Shown here in pieces: positions 1 through 20,992 of a DNA stretch of 25,170 bases (position 1 is its first letter; every line of letters begins with the position of its first letter). The DNA is from a virus: positions 1 through 25,170 of IMG/VR virus record IMGVR_UViG_3300033388_001206; one strand, written 5' to 3'. The notes beneath the pieces are model-generated. The model worked only from the letters and a program-made list of their open reading frames with translations, was not told the DNA's origin and made no database searches. Position numbers and translations under genes: made by a program.

Positions 1-74
1 TACTTATTGTTTTCAACCGTAGGCTTTATGACGCCATCGAAATCAATTGCAACTATTTTATATCTTCTTTTCAT
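1..74 (-). CDS. HAD-superfamily hydrolase, N-terminal fragment (runs off the left edge)
   Basis: Only the first 24 codons are inside the window. They read MKRRYKIVAIDFDGVIKPT and so on, and contain the HAD motif I, hydrophobic strand followed by DFDGV, in which the first Asp is the phosphorylated nucleophile and the second the general acid. HAD proteins are Mg-dependent phosphatases or related phosphotransferases; the substrate cannot be told from so short a piece. The ATG at 72-74 lies inside the 3' end of csf3, overlapping it by 17 nt, so the gene is very likely translated as part of the csf operon. Small HAD proteins are also common as phage accessory genes, so a link to the CRISPR genes is not shown. 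Confidence 0.7.
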   Translation of the reverse strand, partial: MKRRYKIVAIDFDGVIKPTVENNK

Positions 75-747
75 ACTTTACCTCCGGTATAAAACATAAG
101 CGTTGATGGTCGCTCCACCAGTACGGCGGCCTTATCCCCCACTGCCGAATCGTAACACCCACACGCGCCTGGCCATCGAAGGGAATAGCACGCATCAACC
201 TGCCATTCGGGCCGTACACGCTCCAATCTTCGGACCAGGGTGTAACTTCCCACCAATCTACGGCACCTAGTCCCTGGGAGGATTTTTTACCTATATGTGT
301 TACGCCTAAGCACAGATCCCGCACAGCCTCTATATCACCTACCGCATACCATACTAACTGGTCAAACAACTGCACCACCAACGGCATGCGGTAGGCTTTG
401 TACCTACTACTCTTTACATTTATCTTTCCACGCTTGCCACCGAAGTTGATATACTTCTCCAGGTGGTCGTCGAATCGCTTGTGCCAGTGCATGACGTATT
501 CGCCCAGGGGTGGCTCCATATTAAACGAGCAGGCCCAGTACCAGTTATCGCCATCCCCCCGGCGCTCGAAAGGAAGTTCCGGGGTAATGAGGTCATTGGT
601 CAGCATATGGCTGCTGGCATTATAATAAGCCTCCGGGTGGTTACGCCGCATCCATTCGGCGGCAAGGATTCCGTCAAGCGGAAACCAAGGGTCAGTTCCC
701 GCTATGCGTCCATCCTGCAAGCGTGCAGTAATGCGTATCGGCTGCAT
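58..747 (-). CDS. csf3: Type IV CRISPR-Cas protein Csf3 (Cas5-like)
   Basis: A 229-aa protein with RAMP character: a beta-strand-like N-terminus (MQPIRITARLQDGRIAG) and a glycine-rich loop, IGKKSSQGLGAV, at residues 152-163, typical of Cas5/RAMP proteins. In type IV systems the Cas5-like subunit Csf3 caps the 5' end of the crRNA in the effector complex. Length fits Csf3. The start ATG overlaps the csf2 stop codon by one base (TAATG), so translation is coupled, and the next gene downstream begins inside its 3' end. Seen: the loop, length and position. Inferred: the subtype and Cas5 role, from order after csf1, the small subunit and csf2. A different RAMP family (type I or III Cas5) is less likely because of the neighbours. 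Confidence 0.8.
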   Translation of the reverse strand: MQPIRITARLQDGRIAGTDPWFPLDGILAAEWMRRNHPEAYYNASSHMLTNDLITPELPFERRGDGDNWYWACSFNMEPPLGEYVMHWHKRFDDHLEKYINFGGKRGKINVKSSRYKAYRMPLVVQLFDQLVWYAVGDIEAVRDLCLGVTHIGKKSSQGLGAVDWWEVTPWSEDWSVYGPNGRLMRAIPFDGQARVGVTIRQWGIRPPYWWSDHQRLCFIPEVKYEKKI

Positions 748-1769
748 TACTTACCACCGCCAGCTGCAAGCAGTTTCTTTAGTTCATCCGCCTTGTTTTC
801 GAGATACTGGTTATAAAGCTGCACCAAGAAGTCATCATATTGGTTTTTCGCCTCTTCCGCGGGTTTGGACAACCATAAGCAATCTGCCGACACCGACAGA
901 AATTTTCCCGTAGTTTCTTTTGCCCCTGCTGGCCGCCAGGTGTATTCAATGTCGCATAACCCACAGCCTATGTTTGATTTTCCCCCAATATATGGATGTT
1001 TTGAAAACTCCACCAGCGCCGACACGAAGGCGCCCAGTTCCAGGTCGGTCATGTCGCATAAATCAATCCGCTGATACAAAACAGCACCCGCCGCCAGCAT
1101 TTCCACCGTGTACCTCATCTGCTGCGGCAGGTCCTCTTTCTTCTTTTTCTTTTCCTCCTGTACCGGTTCGCTTCCATCTGTTATCGCCAGGGTAGGCTGC
1201 CCTTCCGATAAGGCCAGGCGATTTTCCGCTGGATCATGTAGGTATTTGCGTAGGTTTTCGTTTTTAGCGTCGTCCATCCGCGTAAAACTTTTCTCAAACG
1301 TCCACTGCCGCCAGGACGGAGCGTTTGGATCGCGCAGGTGTTCCGGCAATATCCGCTGGCACTCGGCAACAAGCGGGTACATCGCGCCGATTTTGACTTT
1401 TCCCGTGAGGATCTGATTGCCTACGCTGCCGCCGAAAACGGAAAGCATGGGTACATTACGGCGGTAAAGGCGAGCCTGATCAATGTCAACGGATTGTTCC
1501 CCGCCCAGGGAGCCACCGGAGAAAAGCAGGTAGAACACCGCCGGATTATATTGCAGACCACCTAACTTTTCGGTCATGTAGATGGCAGCGAGGTCGCGCA
1601 GTATACCGCGGAACGAATTTCCACTGTAAATCGTACATTCTGTAGGTTTTCCGTCTGAATCAATAATGATATCGGTGGACAAATAGGAGTCAACGCCAAG
1701 CGACTCACCTATGTGTGAAAGCGGGCTTAATAATGTGATTTTTCCATCTAAACGAATGTTATGTGTCAT
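747..1769 (-). CDS. csf2: Type IV CRISPR-Cas protein Csf2 (Cas7-like backbone)
   Basis: A 340-aa protein that begins with a RAMP-type strand and the segment ITLLSPLSHIGES (residues 11-23), followed by SGNSFRGILRDL at 49-60. This 'isGnslRG.lR' signature is typical of Cas7-family backbone proteins, including Csf2. Csf2 polymerises along the crRNA guide to form the body of the type IV effector. Length matches the family. Residues about 205-220 are a Lys/Glu-rich, probably disordered linker (EEKKKKKEDLP). The start codon overlaps the stop of the cas11-like gene (TAATG) and its stop overlaps the csf3 start in the same way, a strictly coupled operon. Cas7 assignment is strong; the type IV label depends also on the adjacent csf1. 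Confidence 0.86.
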   Translation of the reverse strand: MTHNIRLDGKITLLSPLSHIGESLGVDSYLSTDIIIDSDGKPTECTIYSGNSFRGILRDLAAIYMTEKLGGLQYNPAVFYLLFSGGSLGGEQSVDIDQARLYRRNVPMLSVFGGSVGNQILTGKVKIGAMYPLVAECQRILPEHLRDPNAPSWRQWTFEKSFTRMDDAKNENLRKYLHDPAENRLALSEGQPTLAITDGSEPVQEEKKKKKEDLPQQMRYTVEMLAAGAVLYQRIDLCDMTDLELGAFVSALVEFSKHPYIGGKSNIGCGLCDIEYTWRPAGAKETTGKFLSVSADCLWLSKPAEEAKNQYDDFLVQLYNQYLENKADELKKLLAAGGGK

Positions 1770-2242
1770 TATTCAACTACCTCCCCTGTTTCTGTATCTA
1801 CGAATTTTGCTTCAATCGGCTTTTCTCTTTCAAGCCTATCTCTAACCAGCAAAATGACCAGCGAAGCTTTTTGATAAAGCACGTCCAGTACTTCCCGGTG
1901 ATCCACCATTTGCAACACGTCCGTTAAAAACTGCCTACGGCCCTTGTCCTGCACCTGGATAACAGACCCATCTTCCATCATCTTCATACTTATTATTCCG
2001 TCCGGCAGGGTCTTCGCCCAACGCGGGTGAATCGTTGAGCAATAAAGTTTTGGCTTTAGTTTTTCGATAAACTCTCCCAAATCAGTCGCTCGTTTAGCAA
2101 CGCTTTTCACGGCCCGTTCAGTCTGCCCCCATAGATCTGGCGTTACCTTGAAGCGTTTGACGTCCCGGCTCCGGTAAATTGCGTAAACTAAAAGGGCAGC
2201 TGTAGCTGCCCGCTCGTCGTCTGTATCAAAGTTGTAGAACAT
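1769..2242 (-). CDS. Putative Cas11-like small subunit of the type IV effector
   Basis: A 157-aa, mostly helical, charged protein with no motif I can name. It lies between csf1 and csf2, the position of the small subunit (Cas11) in type IV-B loci, and has a suitable length. The ATG at 2242 is preceded by an excellent ribosome binding site (AAAGGAGGAG, 5 nt before the start). This start is 55 nt inside the csf1 3' end, so the two genes overlap unusually far. The stop codon overlaps the csf2 ATG by one base. Cas11 proteins lie along the belly of the complex and stabilise crRNA or target strand binding. The Cas11 label is an inference from position, size and helical make-up; sequence alone does not prove it. 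Confidence 0.6.
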   Translation of the reverse strand: MFYNFDTDDERAATAALLVYAIYRSRDVKRFKVTPDLWGQTERAVKSVAKRATDLGEFIEKLKPKLYCSTIHPRWAKTLPDGIISMKMMEDGSVIQVQDKGRRQFLTDVLQMVDHREVLDVLYQKASLVILLVRDRLEREKPIEAKFVDTETGEVVE

Positions 2243-2958
2243 GGCTTCTCCTCCTTTTTCTTTTCTTCCAGCTTCTGCGCTACAAATATGGCCAGGTCGA
2301 AAAGCCTGGTTCCCCGGTGCGGCGCGATCTTTTCTTCCATTGCTTGAAACTCTGCTAATCCAAACTGCTTAATCCGGTTCTGGTTATACCGTCCCGTTCT
2401 GATTTCTTCCTTTGAAAATACGGCATATAACTGCTCAATTACACTCAGCCAGTCAGTTAGCGGTTTCCTCCAGACGCAGACCATCGTATCCTCGAACTGC
2501 ACCGGAAAGCCGTCTCTGTCGTAAGCCACCTGCGCCCGGAAATGCAGCCAACGCTGGCCGCTAATAGCTATACAGAACACAAACGGCGGTTCCGGCGGTT
2601 CAAGCAGGAAATTCCGGATCTCCGGCCTGGAAGGGTGTCTTAGCCCTGCTTCCGTAGCCAGTATGCTGTAATTTCTCAGCGACATAAACGATAGACAAAA
2701 GGCGCACCCTGGACACACTGATTTACTCCCCGGCCACCTGGCCTTGTCCCGGTCGGTAAATGTGTCTTTGATCGTCTTTTTTACCGGTTGGCCCCTGCCC
2801 CCGGTCAATCCGCCGCAAAGCCAGCAACGGGTGTCCGGTACGTCTGCCAGCGGCACATCGGTGTATTCCACCACTTTACCCATCGCTACGGGTACATGTG
2901 GCGTTTTCAGCGCGGCCTGCCTGATAAACTGCGTAGGCGTTAGCATCACCATCGCCAT
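2188..2958 (-). CDS. csf1: Type IV CRISPR-Cas protein Csf1 (large-subunit-like, zinc finger)
   Basis: A 256-aa protein with a four-cysteine zinc-binding pattern, CWLCGG at residues 45-50 and CPGC at 82-85 (another Cys at 88), separated by a basic stretch. A short protein of this size with paired CxxC motifs at the head of a csf2/csf3 operon is the hallmark of Csf1, the Cas8-like signature subunit of type IV systems. The rest has W-rich and basic segments and a Lys/Glu-rich tail. Start is uncertain: ATGs at 2958, 2952 and 2946 are in frame, and the AAGGAAGG site is best spaced for the one at 2952. It overlaps the upstream 104-aa gene and runs 55 nt into the cas11-like gene. No nuclease or helicase motif is visible. 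Confidence 0.8.
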   Translation of the reverse strand: MAMVMLTPTQFIRQAALKTPHVPVAMGKVVEYTDVPLADVPDTRCWLCGGLTGGRGQPVKKTIKDTFTDRDKARWPGSKSVCPGCAFCLSFMSLRNYSILATEAGLRHPSRPEIRNFLLEPPEPPFVFCIAISGQRWLHFRAQVAYDRDGFPVQFEDTMVCVWRKPLTDWLSVIEQLYAVFSKEEIRTGRYNQNRIKQFGLAEFQAMEEKIAPHRGTRLFDLAIFVAQKLEEKKKEEKPCSTTLIQTTSGQLQLPF

Positions 2959-4756: not shown

Positions 4757-5818
4757 TTAATTTGGCCTGGTCAGTATGATCTCGCGTGTGTCTGCCCGAT
4801 ATTCAACGATATAGCCCATGTTTCCAGCCACAAATCGCAAAGGTATCATGGTTCGGGCCTTGTCGGTAATAAAAGGTTCCTGATCCATAAGCACCTGCAA
4901 GCCGTCTACCACAGCTATCTTGTTGCCAATGGTGAGTTCGATCTTTTTTGCGGCCTGGGGAGCGGCCAGATCCAACGCCGTCCACGCTTCATAAAAAGCC
5001 CACCCCATGTCGGTTTTGTATGTAACCCAGGGGTAAGGCAACCAAGCGTAGCCGTTATCACCCCAAGACGTTCCCCAGGAATTACGCAGGAGGAAAGCCT
5101 GCCTCTCGTCGCTGTACCCCACCAGCGCTACGGCATGGCCGCCGAGTATTCTGCCACCTGGAAGTGGAATGGCGTAATCCGGCGGCTTTACGTTGAGGAA
5201 GTTGCTACACACCAGCACGGCAGCCAGAACGACGCCTTCCTGATAGATTGCCCTTTTGAGTTCTTCTACCTTACCCGTACGGTTTTTGTCGGTAAAGTTA
5301 CAAACCGAGGCATAAGTTTGGATTTTGTATTTTGCGGCGGAAGTATTCAGGTTAGACGGCAGAGCAGGCACGTTCTTATCGCTGGTTAGCCAGGAATACG
5401 GTAGTTGCTCCTCTGTACACACACCGAAATCACGAAGAACTTTGAGAGCTACCCTTGGGTAAGTTCCGGTCTGGTCAGGTATCCCGTCCATCTGCTTGCA
5501 TTTAGCGTAGAGGTATGCTACGGATAAACCGCTGGCTGGGAAGTCTCCCTGTACGGTCTCCTGAAAAGCCTTCAGACCCCAGCAGGAGGCCGCCGCAACA
5601 CAGGTTCCGTAAGAACCCTGGTTCCATACCGGCGGCAGGTTCGAGCGGTAGTCTACTTCAAACGGTATCTGTTCTGCCGTAAGTTGCGGTACAAGGTTAG
5701 CGTACCTATAATCCCGATAATCCGGCGAGGACGGATATGCTCCGGTAACGTAGTCACCTGCGCCGCCTAAAGCCGTGGTCAGTTCGTTCATGGCTTTACG
5801 CCAAAGATTCCACGCCAT
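4757..5818 (-). CDS. Papain-family (C1A) cysteine protease with C-terminal copper-amine-oxidase-N-like stalk domain
   Basis: A 353-aa protein. The protease part spans about residues 45-285 with the oxyanion Gln67 and catalytic Cys73 in WNQGSYGTC, His228 in GGHAVALVGY and Asn246 in LLRNSWGTSWGDNGYAW, a complete C1A active site. Residues 292-352 (KIELTIGNKIAVVDG, later ARTMIPLRFVAGNMG) form a stalk or copper-amine-oxidase-N1-type beta domain, common on cell-surface proteins of Clostridia. No signal peptide is evident. It follows the amidase in the lysis region, behind a terminator-like hairpin. Possible roles are cleavage of peptide cross-links or surface proteins during lysis, or an accessory gene changing the host surface. 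The start at 5818 is uncertain; ATG 5791 is an alternative. Confidence 0.85.
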   Translation of the reverse strand: MAWNLWRKAMNELTTALGGAGDYVTGAYPSSPDYRDYRYANLVPQLTAEQIPFEVDYRSNLPPVWNQGSYGTCVAAASCWGLKAFQETVQGDFPASGLSVAYLYAKCKQMDGIPDQTGTYPRVALKVLRDFGVCTEEQLPYSWLTSDKNVPALPSNLNTSAAKYKIQTYASVCNFTDKNRTGKVEELKRAIYQEGVVLAAVLVCSNFLNVKPPDYAIPLPGGRILGGHAVALVGYSDERQAFLLRNSWGTSWGDNGYAWLPYPWVTYKTDMGWAFYEAWTALDLAAPQAAKKIELTIGNKIAVVDGLQVLMDQEPFITDKARTMIPLRFVAGNMGYIVEYRADTREIILTRPN

Positions 5819-5924: not shown

Positions 5925-6695
5925 TTAGGTAAGATTCTTAAAGGCCGTGTACAGCTTCACAAGCAAAGCATCGAGATTCTTAATGTATCTTAGAGCACCT
6001 CTCCAATAATCCGGGTTACTAATGATACCTCTGCTCACCAGCCAATCAATTACTTGCTCCGGATTAACTTTATCTACGAAATTCACTCCCAGGTATTGGC
6101 ATATTGCTTTTGCTATCACCTTACCTACAAGTTCTTGATTCCCCGCGTTGGTCAGCCAAGCCTCTTCTATAGGGTTGGAAAGAAAAGCCACTTCCACCAG
6201 GGCAGCGGGCATAGCGGTATGGCGTAGCACATAGAAATGTGCTTCCTTCACTCCTCTGTTTTGTAACTCGGTAGCCTCTCCCGCCGTGACGGGAATATCT
6301 GCTTCCTTCACGGCAATAATTTTGCCAGACGGCGTATTGGTGGCAAGGAATAGTTGCATGTTCAGTAGGTTCGCCAGTCGCAGGCCCTCCTTGCTCCCCT
6401 CGTAGTAGTAGACTTCCAGACCGTTGGCCTCCGGGTTCTCGCTTGCGTTAGCGTGGATCGAGACAAAGCACGAGGCACCAGACTTATTTGCTATGTCACA
6501 TCGTTGCTGAAGGCTTACGTCTACATCATTCTTGCGGGTCATTACAACTTCAACGCCTTGCTTACTCAGCCACCCGCTTGCACAGAAAGCAATACTGAGG
6601 TTAACGTGCTTTTCGGTAACGCCCATGGATCCTAAGGCTCCCGGGTCTCGTCAGCGGCCCCCGTGGCCAGGATCAACGCACGCAATCAGGGGCAT
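5925..6695 (-). CDS. N-acetylmuramoyl-L-alanine amidase (Amidase_3) endolysin, interrupted by an in-frame TGA at codon 15
   Basis: The frame from ATG 6695 has a textbook ribosome site (AGGAGG, 8 nt upstream) and encodes MPLIACVDPGHGGR, then TGA at 6651-6653, then RDPGALGSMGVTEKHVNLSI and a full Amidase_3 domain. Zinc ligands would be His11 (DPGHGG), Glu28 (TEKH) and His81 (SIHAN), with catalytic Glu168 (LVEVAFLSN). The C-terminal 60 residues are a small helical region. Amidase_3 enzymes cut the MurNAc-L-Ala bond of peptidoglycan. Translation from ATG 6626 gives a 233-aa protein lacking His11, which should be inactive. Between GHGG and DPGA one residue is usual; here there are three codons, CGC TGA CGA, so a 6-nt insertion is possible. 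TGA followed by C is a leaky context. Confidence 0.85.
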
Positions 6696-6718
6696 TTAGA
6701 CCACCTCCTTTTTTCTTT

Positions 6719-6853
6719 TTAGCACCCTTCTGGTTCAGTTGTGTCGCTTGTCCAGTCGAAAACTATTCCCTCCACGTCAGGATCAGCAAAATCCAGATCA
6801 GCGTCAGGGGCATCGCAAAGAGGGCAAACAGGGAAATTACTTCGGTATAACAT
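6719..6853 (-). CDS. 44-aa acidic protein with a CPLC motif
   Basis: A short frame from ATG 6853 to TAA 6719, starting inside the 3' end of the holin gene (17-nt overlap) and ending just before the AGGAGG of the amidase gene. The product has CPLC at residues 10-13 and a very acidic middle (DAPDADLDFADPDVEG). Coupling between holin and endolysin and the biased, non-random composition argue that it is translated. The family is unknown to me; a lysis accessory role would be a guess. Confidence 0.5.
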   Translation of the reverse strand: MLYRSNFPVCPLCDAPDADLDFADPDVEGIVFDWTSDTTEPEGC

Positions 6854-7259
6854 TTTCTTTCGTCCCCTCACTTTTTTTCTTGATCTGATCAAGGGCATCT
6901 TTAATCACGCCCGGGATAGGTATATCCATCCTGCTTAAATTTTCCAGTATGGATAAACCCTCATTTGCAATGTAGAAGAATATCGCCAGGTTGCGCAGGA
7001 TTTCCGCGCCAAGCAGAATATCCAGCCAGTACCCAATCGCCACGGGTACAAACAACAGAATCTTCTTCGCAATGCCCCGCAGCCCTACATTTGAATCCAA
7101 CTTCTTTTCGTACCATGCAGCGGTCAAGCCGGCGATATAATCCATTACCACGAATATAACGAGGATTTTTAGCGCCACGTCCCAACCTCCCAGCAAACCG
7201 ACCAGAAGGCCGCCGACAATTGCAACAGCCGCTTTGATTGAAGGTATTAAGTTGTCCAT
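6837..7259 (-). CDS. Phage holin (toxin secretion/phage lysis holin family)
   Basis: A 140-aa membrane protein starting at ATG 7259 (MDNLIPSIKAAVAIV). It has hydrophobic segments at about residues 9-24, 27-44, 63-78 and 83-97, then an amphipathic, charged C-terminal tail (DALDQIKKKSEGTKENV). The motif DYIAGLTAAW followed by a 'GLRGIAKK' segment is typical of the Firmicutes phage holin family (Holin_4, TcdE/UtxA-like). It forms membrane lesions that release the endolysin or collapse the membrane potential at the end of infection. An open frame extends 30 codons further upstream, but that stretch contains a terminator hairpin and is not likely coding. The amidase gene follows downstream, forming a lysis cassette. 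Confidence 0.88.
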   Translation of the reverse strand: MDNLIPSIKAAVAIVGGLLVGLLGGWDVALKILVIFVVMDYIAGLTAAWYEKKLDSNVGLRGIAKKILLFVPVAIGYWLDILLGAEILRNLAIFFYIANEGLSILENLSRMDIPIPGVIKDALDQIKKKSEGTKENVIPK

Positions 7260-7278
7260 GTAACCACGCCCCTTTCCG

Positions 7279-7307
7279 CAAAAATTAAAGCCGCCTATTT
7301 CGGCGGC
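7279..7307 (-). terminator. Intrinsic terminator upstream of the holin gene
   Basis: On the minus strand GCCGCC-GAAATA-GGCGGC is followed by TTTAATTTTTG, a classic GC stem and U-tract, 20 nt before the holin start. It would separate the tail transcript from the lysis cassette unless transcription is antiterminated. Confidence 0.75.
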
Positions 7308-7432
7308 AGTCATCTCTTTTGTTGTGTTATCTCGCTGAATGTTCTTCATTACTTGTTACATGATTGTCGAATCTTTCCGCAAACCTATGGACCTGTTCCT
7401 CATGTCTGGTAACTCGGATCTCAAGGAGACAT

Positions 7433-12938: not shown

Positions 12939-13595
12939 CTACCTCCCGTTGCTCCGCAGATTACGGCGTTCCTGCGCCCGGTAAATGTACGCCTCAACCT
13001 GCTCATTGCCGATGTAAACGTAGATGTCGCCCGTGCCCGCCAATTGAGTAGTGCGAAAGGCCGCCGCTATGCGCTCGGCCAGCTTGTCCATCCAGCTGGT
13101 GTCAGACAGGGGCAACAACGCTTCGGGGCCGCGCTCGCCCACGCCGATAACGGCGGGCCGGGTAATTATGCCGCCCTCGCCGTACCAGCGCACGTCTATG
13201 TCGGGCACAGGAAGAGATATCCCTGCTATAGACTTGGAACCGATACTGAAACTGAAATGCGGAGTAGGGATACGCAAGGACTTAATTCCGTCAATTAACC
13301 TGTCAATAATATCCCGCCCCCACCAGTACGCCCGGCTCGGGATGGACTTGATATAACCCCAGGCTTCGTTTAGCCGGCTTTTGATTGTGGACGCTACATT
13401 AGAGCCGTATCTGCTTGCGCTGCTAACTATATTGCCCCATACCTTGTCGATCCTTGCTTTCATGTTGTCCCAGACGTTCAGAATGGAGTTTTTGATCGAA
13501 CCCCATTTGTTACCGGCAGTTACCCGGAAGTTATCCCAGGACGATCTGAGGTAGCTACTTATATTGCTCCATTTTGTAGCTATGTTCTGCCGCAT
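12939..13595 (-). CDS. Tape measure protein, C-terminal part (out of frame with the N-terminal part)
   Basis: A 218-residue frame that continues the Trp-rich helical repeats of the tape measure (WSNISSYLRSSWDNF, VWDNMKARIDKVWGNI) and ends in the usual C-terminal region: GEGGIITRPAVIGVGERGPE, followed by ALLPLS. The 'GGI...p..igvGErGpEai.Pl' motif is found at the end of many Firmicutes phage tail tape measure proteins. The frame overlaps the N-terminal part by 41 nt. It is not expected to be a separate gene: the overlap is exactly where a 22-bp tandem duplication changes the frame (13586-13629). A Met codon exists at 13595, but no good ribosome site is apparent. Confidence 0.85.
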   Translation of the reverse strand: MRQNIATKWSNISSYLRSSWDNFRVTAGNKWGSIKNSILNVWDNMKARIDKVWGNIVSSASRYGSNVASTIKSRLNEAWGYIKSIPSRAYWWGRDIIDRLIDGIKSLRIPTPHFSFSIGSKSIAGISLPVPDIDVRWYGEGGIITRPAVIGVGERGPEALLPLSDTSWMDKLAERIAAAFRTTQLAGTGDIYVYIGNEQVEAYIYRAQERRNLRSNGR

Positions 13596-15813
13596 GTTGT
13601 CCCACCATCTGCCGCATGTTGTCCCACCAAGTTGATATGGTCATAACAATAGATTGCCACTTAGTACCGGCTACCCTTTTGAAATTATCCCACCAGCTGG
13701 AGATGGAGTTACTTATATTTTTCCAACAGTTGGATATGCCTTGCTTTAGTTCGTCCCAGTTGTCGAGTACAGTATTTACTATTTTTTCCCACCCGACGCT
13801 CGTCTTCTTTTTTATTCCACCCCAAAGGCCGGACACCCAGTCAGCAAAGTTACCCCACTTGATTTTTACCCCTTCCCATATATTGCCAGCCCAAGCTAGA
13901 AAGCCGTCCCACTTTTGTTGTATGCTGTCCCAGAGGGGGCCTGCCCAACCGACAACCCAATTGGTGAAGCTACTCCATCTCTCCTTTACACCTTCCCATA
14001 GCCCGGCTGCCCAGTCTTTAATTTTGCCCCAGTTTTTATATATAAGAACACCTATGGCGCCAACTGGCCCTGTAAGCGTAGCTAGAATTTCCCACCATTT
14101 TAATCCCGTTTTTTCCTTAATCCAGTCCCAGGCATTAACAAACCCTTGCTTTACCCAATCCCAAAATCCACTCAATGTCGGCTTCGCTTGATCCAGAACA
14201 CTCATATCCAGACCGGGTAAAGTAGCAGCCTCAGGAGCCTCCAGTGCAGGCATAGCTATCTGATCCAACCCGACGGTTATATCTTCGGCGGCCCCGGCGG
14301 TATCGGCCATGAGGCGGTTGATTTCATCAAACGGTTGCAGGTTATCTTTTGCCGCCTTACCCGCCTTTTCCGTTCCATCAGCTTGTTCTTCCATCCCTTC
14401 CGCAGCCTGCTGGCTGGTATCGGCCATTTCCGTTTCCTGTCCGCTCATTGCTGCCAGCGTCTTCTCCAGGTTGGCCCGCTCCACGCTTGCGGCATACTTG
14501 CTCCAGAGCATGATTCCCCCGGTTACGGCGGCAGATACGCCCATTATCGCCCAGCCTAAAGGCCCCATGGCAGCCCATACTGAATACAGGGCTGTGCGAA
14601 GGACTTGCAATATTCCTACGTGGGCAATGCCGGCCATGGACGCCAAATGTAGCTGCAAACGGTATATTTGCACCGCCCGGGCCACGAAGTTTAGAATACC
14701 GGAAGTTACTACGGCCTCCCCCCTCATGACGGCAGTAGCAAGGGTAAAACTCACTATAGCGTTCCGCGCTAAGGTTAATACCCAAGTAACAGTCTTAAAA
14801 ACTAAGAAAGCTGTTACGGCCCCTAGCACCACTGGTTTGATTATGGCCCAGTGCCTTGCTATCGCTTTCACTATAGTTTTCGTGGTATTCCAGAACCCCT
14901 GTAATATAGCCGTCATTGTATTGATAGCAGCGGCAAAATCTGCTCCGAATGCCTTAGTCAGTGCCACACTAAGCCCGAGCCTTCGAAAGGTGTCGTAAAA
15001 ATCAGTTGCCCAATCCCGCACTCTCTGTAACCAGGAAGTTAAGCTTTTGAATAACCCCGATGTCAATGCCCCCATCGTCATGCGCCAGACATCTCGAATA
15101 GTAGAAGTGACACCTTTCCAAGTATTTTCCATGTTCTCCATCATGTTAGGAAAGCGTTTCTCCATGCCTTCGATGAGTATCTGAATGGCTTTATTTGCCG
15201 GGATTAAGCCTTTTTCGGAAAGTTTCATTACTTCCGCAGTAGATTTGCCCATCGCCTCAGCCAGCATCTCCCACGCCGGTATTCCTGCTTCTGTGAGCTG
15301 GCGCATTTCTTCCCCGGAGATTTTAGCCTTAGCACGCATCTGCCCTAAAGCAAGAATTATACGGTTTATGCCTTCTCGTCCTAAACCTAACCCGGCTGTG
15401 GCATCGCCTACGGCTTTCATCGTTGGCAAAACTTCTTCGGCCGCAAAACCCATTGCCATCATGCGCCTTGAAGCTTCGAGCAAATCGGGATACTCAAACG
15501 GCGTTCTGGCAGCAAAGTCGGCCATCTCATCCAAAAACGCCTGGGCCTTCTCTGCGCTGCCCAGCATGGTAGTAAAACCTATCCGGGCCTGCTCCATCAT
15601 GGCATTGAAGTTTACAGCTTCGCCTACTACGGACTGAAAGCCGCGCCGAATGGCCTCAAAGAAGCCGATGCCGATGGCTACAGAGAAGGCATTCTTAAGC
15701 ATATCACCGAGCCTGGTGCTTGTTGCCTGAGTCTGCTTTTCCATTCGGGCCAAACCCTGCTCGTACGCTTTTGTATCTATTCCAAGTTTGAATAAGAGTT
15801 CGCCTACGGTCAT
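13555..15813 (-). CDS. Tape measure protein, N-terminal part (truncated by a frameshift)
   Basis: A 752-aa frame from ATG 15813 (GGTGGTGGAAAA upstream). It starts with the tape measure signature (LFKLGIDTKAYEQGLARMEK) and a domain rich in 'GF..M.GSAEKAQAFLDEMA' and 'TPFEYPDLLEASRRM', then has hydrophobic segments at about 305-430, and after residue 540 a series of Trp-rich repeats (WDWIKEKTG, WEGVKERW, WDSIQQKWDGF). The tape measure fixes tail length and helps DNA entry. The normal protein continues into the other frame; removing one copy of the 22-bp repeat gives a single 950-aa protein. Here it ends after 20 wrong-frame residues (QHAAEHSYKMEQYK). Confidence 0.9.
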   Translation of the reverse strand: MTVGELLFKLGIDTKAYEQGLARMEKQTQATSTRLGDMLKNAFSVAIGIGFFEAIRRGFQSVVGEAVNFNAMMEQARIGFTTMLGSAEKAQAFLDEMADFAARTPFEYPDLLEASRRMMAMGFAAEEVLPTMKAVGDATAGLGLGREGINRIILALGQMRAKAKISGEEMRQLTEAGIPAWEMLAEAMGKSTAEVMKLSEKGLIPANKAIQILIEGMEKRFPNMMENMENTWKGVTSTIRDVWRMTMGALTSGLFKSLTSWLQRVRDWATDFYDTFRRLGLSVALTKAFGADFAAAINTMTAILQGFWNTTKTIVKAIARHWAIIKPVVLGAVTAFLVFKTVTWVLTLARNAIVSFTLATAVMRGEAVVTSGILNFVARAVQIYRLQLHLASMAGIAHVGILQVLRTALYSVWAAMGPLGWAIMGVSAAVTGGIMLWSKYAASVERANLEKTLAAMSGQETEMADTSQQAAEGMEEQADGTEKAGKAAKDNLQPFDEINRLMADTAGAAEDITVGLDQIAMPALEAPEAATLPGLDMSVLDQAKPTLSGFWDWVKQGFVNAWDWIKEKTGLKWWEILATLTGPVGAIGVLIYKNWGKIKDWAAGLWEGVKERWSSFTNWVVGWAGPLWDSIQQKWDGFLAWAGNIWEGVKIKWGNFADWVSGLWGGIKKKTSVGWEKIVNTVLDNWDELKQGISNCWKNISNSISSWWDNFKRVAGTKWQSIVMTISTWWDNMRQMVGQHAAEHSYKMEQYK
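13586..13629. repeat. Perfect 22-bp tandem duplication inside the tape measure gene
   Basis: Two identical 22-bp copies, 13586-13607 and 13608-13629 (each starts TCTGCCGCATG and ends TCCCACCA). As 22 is not divisible by three, the second copy shifts the frame between the two tape-measure parts. Confidence 0.97.
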
Positions 15814-20346: not shown

Positions 20347-20754
20347 CTAGCTAGCTGAGTAAAGTGGAATAGCATAGTCTGCGCCGTCTAGGTTGACCTT
20401 CAGCCATTTTTTTGTCGTGCCAGCATATTCACTGTCCGTGAGCATATCCCTAGCAGACCCGGGTATGGTCAAAAACACGTCCGGCAGCGCGATCCCCTGG
20501 AAGTGCAGGGCTGACTTCGCAACTCCCGAACCCTGGAGCGACATAAGGACGAATGCATCTACAGAACTGCCTTTGGCCGTAGTCTCTCTTTGTAGCCACA
20601 AGTTGGACTGATAATCAGTCGCTCCTACTTCAGTAAGGTGAACGTTCCAGCCTGTAACAGTTTGTGCAGACAAATCCGGAGTTCCGTTTTTGCCGATGTA
20701 AATATAACCGCCGTTGACGTTTGCGGTTTCTCCTACCGTCAGATCGGCGGCCAA
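20347..20754 (-). CDS. C-terminal part of a frameshifted structural-region protein
   Basis: A frame that reads as a normal protein from about 20805, upstream of its first start codon (TTG at 20754): ATGAKTGGSAVSQWNGLAAD, then LTVGETANVNGGYIYIGKNG and a beta-rich end (LKVNLDGADYAIPLYSAS). The upstream residues are not preceded by a start, so it looks like the continuation of the gene at 20992. The full protein would be about 214 aa. Function unknown; position beside capsid and connector genes suggests a head decoration or joining protein. Confidence 0.6.
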   Translation of the reverse strand: MAADLTVGETANVNGGYIYIGKNGTPDLSAQTVTGWNVHLTEVGATDYQSNLWLQRETTAKGSSVDAFVLMSLQGSGVAKSALHFQGIALPDVFLTIPGSARDMLTDSEYAGTTKKWLKVNLDGADYAIPLYSAS

Positions 20755-20992
20755 GCCGTTCCACTGAGAAACAGCAGAGCCTCCTGTCTTTGCTCCAGTA
20801 GCCGCTAGAAAACGTCGAACTATCTGTAACTGTTAGAGAAAACGCATCGTCCGCAGCTTCGCTGGCAATCGTGCCAAGTGCTACGTCCACCGCTCCGGCT
20901 GCACTGTTAGTAATAGTGGAACCTTTGTTCAAAGTAATTTTTCCTGTAACCAAAGCACCGACTATCGCTTTACCTTTCGTCAGCAAATTCAC
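20630..20992 (-). CDS. N-terminal part of the same frameshifted protein
   Basis: Starts with GTG 20992 (MNLLTKGKAIVGALVTGKIT). Residues 1-63 read normally: KGSTITNSAAGAVDVALGTI, then EAADDAFSLTVTDSSTF. After that the frame becomes Arg/Cys-rich and random (RRLCCFSVERLGRRSD). A +1 step within 20803-20812 rejoins the good frame AATGAKTGG. The 646-nt span is one base more than a whole number of codons. The residues after 63 are not likely to be real protein. Confidence 0.65.
   Translation of the reverse strand: MNLLTKGKAIVGALVTGKITLNKGSTITNSAAGAVDVALGTIASEAADDAFSLTVTDSSTFSSGYWSKDRRLCCFSVERLGRRSDGRRNRKRQRRLYLHRQKRNSGFVCTNCYRLERSPY

Follow-up and report, generated by a model that had tools for sequence, protein, structure and literature searches.

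Here we present an endolysin gene, carried by a 25,170-base phage record from IMG/VR (the whole stretch analysed, hereafter the window), which is interrupted by an in-frame TGA at codon 15 and may carry a recoding site at which a +6 stop hop would restore a canonical amidase. We give this reading a probability of about 0.45. The same arrangement of a stop and flanking codons recurs in other phage and prophage amidases, and an equivalent stop is conserved in a related clade in which the gene is under purifying selection. The features of the lysis region of the window are as follows.

5925..6695, minus strand: Amidase_3 endolysin gene (PF01520; PHROG 435 and 2742, endolysin)
6704..6709, minus strand: Shine-Dalgarno AGGAGG for the ATG at 6695, by direct reading
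6654..6656, minus strand: CGC (Arg14), proposed take-off codon, by direct reading
6651..6653, minus strand: in-frame TGA, codon 15, by sequence reading
6648..6650, minus strand: CGA, codon 16, proposed landing codon, by sequence reading, with the tRNA assigned by standard decoding rules
6648..6653, minus strand: TGACGA, the 6-nt excess relative to intact homologues (L126 and homologues with GHGG-x-D)
5925..6626, minus strand: 233-aa open reading frame from the internal ATG at 6626, without the first zinc-ligand His
6837..7349, minus strand: holin (Phage_holin_4_1; PF05105, E 3e-38), upstream of the lysin

The lysin gene has 255 sense codons in addition to the internal TGA and the stop codon that ends it. 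From its start ATG (6695-6693), downstream of AGGAGG (6709-6704), the frame reads MPLIACVDPGHGGR, then TGA, then RDPGA..., the TGA being followed by CGA, by GAC CCG GGA (DPG) and by the rest of the amidase down to 5925. With the stop scored as X, the product matches PF01520 with an E value of 8e-50 over profile positions 2-173 of 174. An earlier note on this DNA had described a TGA at codon 15, behind a strong AGGAGG and ahead of the rest of a full amidase; its coordinates and codon number proved exact on direct reading, the ribosome-binding sequence is in place, and nearly the whole profile is matched. The stop splits the zinc-ligand motif, with the first His before it and the remainder after it, and the His-Glu-His ligands and the catalytic Glu of the Amidase_3 family come together in a single frame only if the stop is passed. 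Elsewhere the frame is intact, including the Glu and His residues. The 233-aa product from ATG 6626 does lack DPGHGG, and with it the motif's first His, as the earlier note had said of the next available start; judged from its sequence, this form is probably not the active product.

Comparison with homologues also bore out the suggestion that the three-codon spacing between GHGG and DPGA reflects a 6-nt insertion. In L126, the amidase of a related phage, CACGGGGGCCGC is joined to GACCCAGG with nothing between (CGC-GAC direct), and other homologues have the GHGG-x-D spacing. Searches for the window lysin itself found no close homologue in viral contigs, no DNA match in cultured phages and no other record with the same insert. 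A scan of viral contigs for the same insert type after GHGG gave three matches, all of them out-of-frame chance matches, and a scan for inserts after GHGG in 398 genomes returned only natural long loops without stops.

The stop in the window lies between two Arg codons, CGC-TGA-CGA, both of which are read by one tRNA-Arg(ICG) under standard decoding rules. According to the stop-hop proposal, most ribosomes would terminate at the UGA after 14 residues and yield no enzyme, while a minority would retain the peptidyl-tRNA-Arg, which would leave CGC, pass over the UGA and re-pair with CGA six nucleotides on, so that decoding would continue in the same frame. The product would be the canonical DPGHGGRDPGA amidase, and the lysin yield would be low. 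For the window by itself, once a 6-nt insert that contains a stop and keeps the frame is assumed, the chance of a cognate Arg codon is ~3/64.

In IMG/VR we searched for amidase starts in which 4-21 additional nucleotides separate DPG from HGG; a stop was not part of the pattern. The patterns demanded CAY (His) before GGNGG, so that a His landing codon is partly a matter of construction; the stop, its position and the +5, +8 and +11 cases were not imposed. The GACCC form of the scan recovered L136 and L137/L140, and the GATCC form L172, L173/L175, L174, L177 and L178, each plus non-lysins. The inserts are CAC-TAG-CAC (+6) in L137/L140, CAT-TAG-CAC (+6) in L174 and L177, CAC-TAG-CAT (+6) in L178, GGT-TGAAG-GGC (+8) in L173/L175 and CAT-TAGCTATT-CAT (+11) in L172. 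L136, on the record with the holin closest to that of the window (L046/L136), has the same AAGGAGGTGGT leader as the window lysin and reads GACCCAGGT-TA-GGTCACGGGGG, a 5-nt insert (GGT-TA-GGT, +5) in which TAG stands directly behind one GGT and a second GGT precedes CAC. Its other genes look whole. Six pattern matches (L138, L139, L141, L176, L179 and L203) were set aside as not being lysins, and L180 is intact. Each of the phage records that were re-checked held only one Amidase_3.

In every true lysin with an insert among these scan hits, the stop directly follows a codon, and another codon read by the tRNA of that codon stands just before coding resumes, 5-11 nt on. Where the two codons differ in the phage cases, the difference is confined to the wobble base and a single tRNA serves for both. 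The computed chance of such a form in a random insert of those lengths is ~0.0015-0.002. A peptidyl-tRNA hop would restore canonical DPGHGGxDPGA in each of the phage and prophage cases listed. What recurs is a stop that directly follows one codon and is itself followed, 5-11 nt from that codon, by a cognate one; this arrangement favours hopping over plain readthrough. The stop directly behind the take-off codon is common to the window, every case outside the conserved clade described below and all nine interrupted members of that clade; a cognate landing codon is present in the window as in every phage case, and absent in 4 of the 9 clade members.

Several observations were made along with these cases. 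The bodies of L173 and L174 are 95% identical and their inserts are different; L173 and L175, from two metagenomes, are 99.6% identical over 4.6 kb. Upstream of the first Asp (D1) of its motif, L174 retains the remnant of a first lysin start (MVERRAVCLDPCH...), and another module with its own Shine-Dalgarno and ATG comes after it; from this double module the zinc-ligand motif looks like an insertion hot spot. The interrupted lysin cassettes of L137 and L140 are nearly identical, and the genes that flank them are ~74% identical, a pattern suggesting that the interrupted gene was transferred between phages. The amidase of Thermoanaerobacter wiegelii (L006) has a plain frameshift near its start, as in an ordinary broken copy. 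Alignment A1 was too diverse to serve as a search query.

Applied to the 398 genomes of Caldanaerobacter's phylum, the same patterns found L181, L182, L188, L201 and L202, all of the His-stop-His type, while a reversed-pattern control in these genomes gave zero matches. L181 is located in a tail-lysin-holin run; the surroundings of L201 and L202 hold no recognisable phage structural genes, as judged by eye from gene names. The class of G086 comprises 17 genomes, nine of which hold an orthologue of the lysin. In 9 of its 10 orthologous loci, from nine species, one stop stands at the same codon (TAG in eight, TAA in one, L188), and L187 is the sole intact locus. The residues CLDPGH ahead of the stop and GG behind it do not change, while their codons vary synonymously, and dN/dS for the body of the gene is 0.12-0.36 in the pairs giving a value, synonymous sites being saturated in several more distant pairs. 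Behind the stop, five of the nine have a His codon, two Arg (CGC), one Tyr and one Pro, a variation confirmed with a pattern lacking the His requirement. Cognate landing is therefore not strictly kept in this clade, and the genes are still under selection; with G-U pairing, tRNA-His could accept CGC and TAC as landing codons, but not CCC. Because the gene is under purifying selection and the stop has persisted through this much divergence, the sequences indicate that it is not a lesion and that the interrupted genes of the clade are not pseudogenes; some form of recoding very probably keeps them alive. L187 nests within the interrupted clade and is without exactly the two extra codons, consistent with an intact state reached by loss of the interruption. 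In the interrupted orthologue L201/L215 (G242:C82), ACG stands in place of the ATG start of its relatives, which would reduce expression further or mark decay. On a tree of 46 lysins, the interrupted state needs eight label changes, and well-supported branches force at least three of these, which makes several origins likely; the nearest rows to the window lysin are intact.

Two other genes in the window are damaged. The frame of the tape-measure gene is shifted by a perfect 22-bp tandem repeat (13586-13629), giving 752 aa + 218 aa in place of the one 987-aa frame of L026, and the gene at 20350-20992 is broken by a 32-nt deletion near 20798, although it is whole (225 aa) in L018/L019. The window phage may be defective and its lysin copy decaying, and because of these two breaks the window lysin may be a pseudogene, as the earlier note had suggested, unlike the genes of the related clade, which are under purifying selection. 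Taken to its full extent, decay would mean a defective prophage or mutant genome, with the TGA insert as one lesion among several and no lysin made from this copy. The absence of the insert from any other record found and the existence of the intact forms L126 and L187 would fit such an account. Against it, the insert form is common to seven other phage lysin lineages, the equivalent stop is conserved in a clade with low dN/dS, the remaining frame of the window lysin is undamaged at its Glu and His codons, and the genes of L136 other than its amidase look whole; we hold decay of the window copy to be somewhat unlikely. An assembly or sequencing error, also proposed earlier, would draw on the fact that the window is a single metagenomic record, and is very improbable, given same-form inserts in independent datasets (L173 and L175, L137 and L140, and the nine genomes).

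Under in-frame readthrough, the stop would be decoded by a near-cognate tRNA and the product would contain two extra residues (GHGGR-X-RDPGA in the window, DPGH-X-X-GG in the clade). The frame is the same on both sides of the stop in the window and in the conserved clade. For the clade it is an equal rival to the hop, because the codon after the stop varies there (CAC, CAT, CGC, TAC, CCC). Longer natural loops between GHGG and D.GA exist (L183-L185), so a readthrough product of the window gene could fold, and conserved internal stops with dN/dS below 1 have been reported in bacteria (PMC7918605). But the frame is not the same on both sides in L136 (+5), L173 and L175 (+8) or L172 (+11), and because these inserts shift the frame, readthrough cannot join the two parts there, whereas a hop can. 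Nor does readthrough predict matching residues before and after the stop. L188 uses UAA, generally the least leaky stop, and no pyrrolysyl-tRNA synthetase scored over the cut-off in nine genomes. For the window, we consider readthrough improbable, and return to the +6 stop hop as the preferred reading.

Other routes around the stop were considered. A change of genetic code was rejected, since TGA, TAG and TAA all terminate genes in the window (TGA in 8 of 34), as was decoding by pyrrolysine, with UGA in the window, UAA in L188 and the synthetase result just given. At the TGA site of the window no Rfam family was found and no unusual folding, the downstream fold, where selenocysteine decoding would call for a SECIS hairpin, being no better than shuffles (z 0.2). 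Structure-driven recoding found no support in the consensus fold of seven clade members, with a covariation term of +0.27. DNA-level switching by short repeats was also set aside: about half of the pairs are imperfect, differing at the wobble base only, and codons fit better.

Two further features of the window are of note. A papain-like cysteine protease with a Cu_amine_oxidN1 domain (4757-5818) adjoins the lysin, and in L133 a similar protein (1855-2865, judged by eye) adjoins holin and lysin. At 58-2958 on the minus strand, matches to type IV CRISPR effectors follow one another next to structural genes of the phage, which would seem to carry a type IV system:

2188-2958, minus strand: Csf1 match
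1769-2242, minus strand: Cas11 match
747-1769, minus strand: Csf2 match
58-747, minus strand: Csf3 match

Among the closest known systems is the bypass in T4 gene 60, a phage gene joined in translation, as is proposed for the amidases; its take-off codon is directly followed by UAG and is matched by the landing codon (PMC5009743, PMC11194080). Its gap is 50 nt, however, with nascent-peptide and stem-loop signals and identical codons, whereas the amidase inserts span 5-11 nt without conserved structure, stand early (codons 10-15) and have codons that are partly only cognate. Synthetic stop hops in E. coli, in which matched codons flank a stop and 9 nt yield one amino acid (PMC5009743), have the same geometry as CAC-TAG-CAC and CGC-TGA-CGA, but are known from artificial constructs only. 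The byp elements of Magnusiomyces capitatus mitochondria are coding inserts skipped in translation, sometimes with an imperfect landing match (PMC5009743); these are organellar and occupy 81 sites in most genes, in contrast to inserts in one gene family of bacteria and phages. Bacterial genes whose conserved in-frame stops have been ascribed to readthrough (PMC7918605) resemble the clade in having the stop at orthologous positions with dN/dS below 1, but the finding is a genome-wide statistic without this amidase gene or the matched-codon geometry, and the main text of that paper does not contain the words amidase, lysin, hopping or bypass.

A 2016 review of recoding stated that natural in-frame stop hopping was not known, and that a bypass serving regulation would attract wide interest (PMC5009743). 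The open-access literature searched, most subscription papers and preprints lying outside it, held no report of a stop hop in lysins. Translational recoding itself is known; what is new here are natural candidates for stop hopping, with a putative mechanism. With a confidence like that given to the window site itself, we suggest that phage and prophage amidases, many of them of Bacillota, contain natural stop hops acquired several times and selected as a limiter of lysin dose, of which the window would be an Arg-type example, its copy perhaps still working and its low yield useful. The earlier note had proposed dose control through a leaky UGA-C. Dose control in general is supported, since an early stop of this kind is conserved in nine bacterial species whose genes are under purifying selection and recurs in unrelated phage amidases, but the putatively leaky UGA-C context is not a common feature, the stops being UAG, UAA and UGA.

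For decades T4 gene 60 has been almost the only natural bypass, and the amidase set offers short, cheaply testable candidates within a single enzyme family for which assays are well established. By any mechanism, gene callers give such lysins a wrong start or drop them, since the zinc ligand is missing from the frame downstream of the stop.
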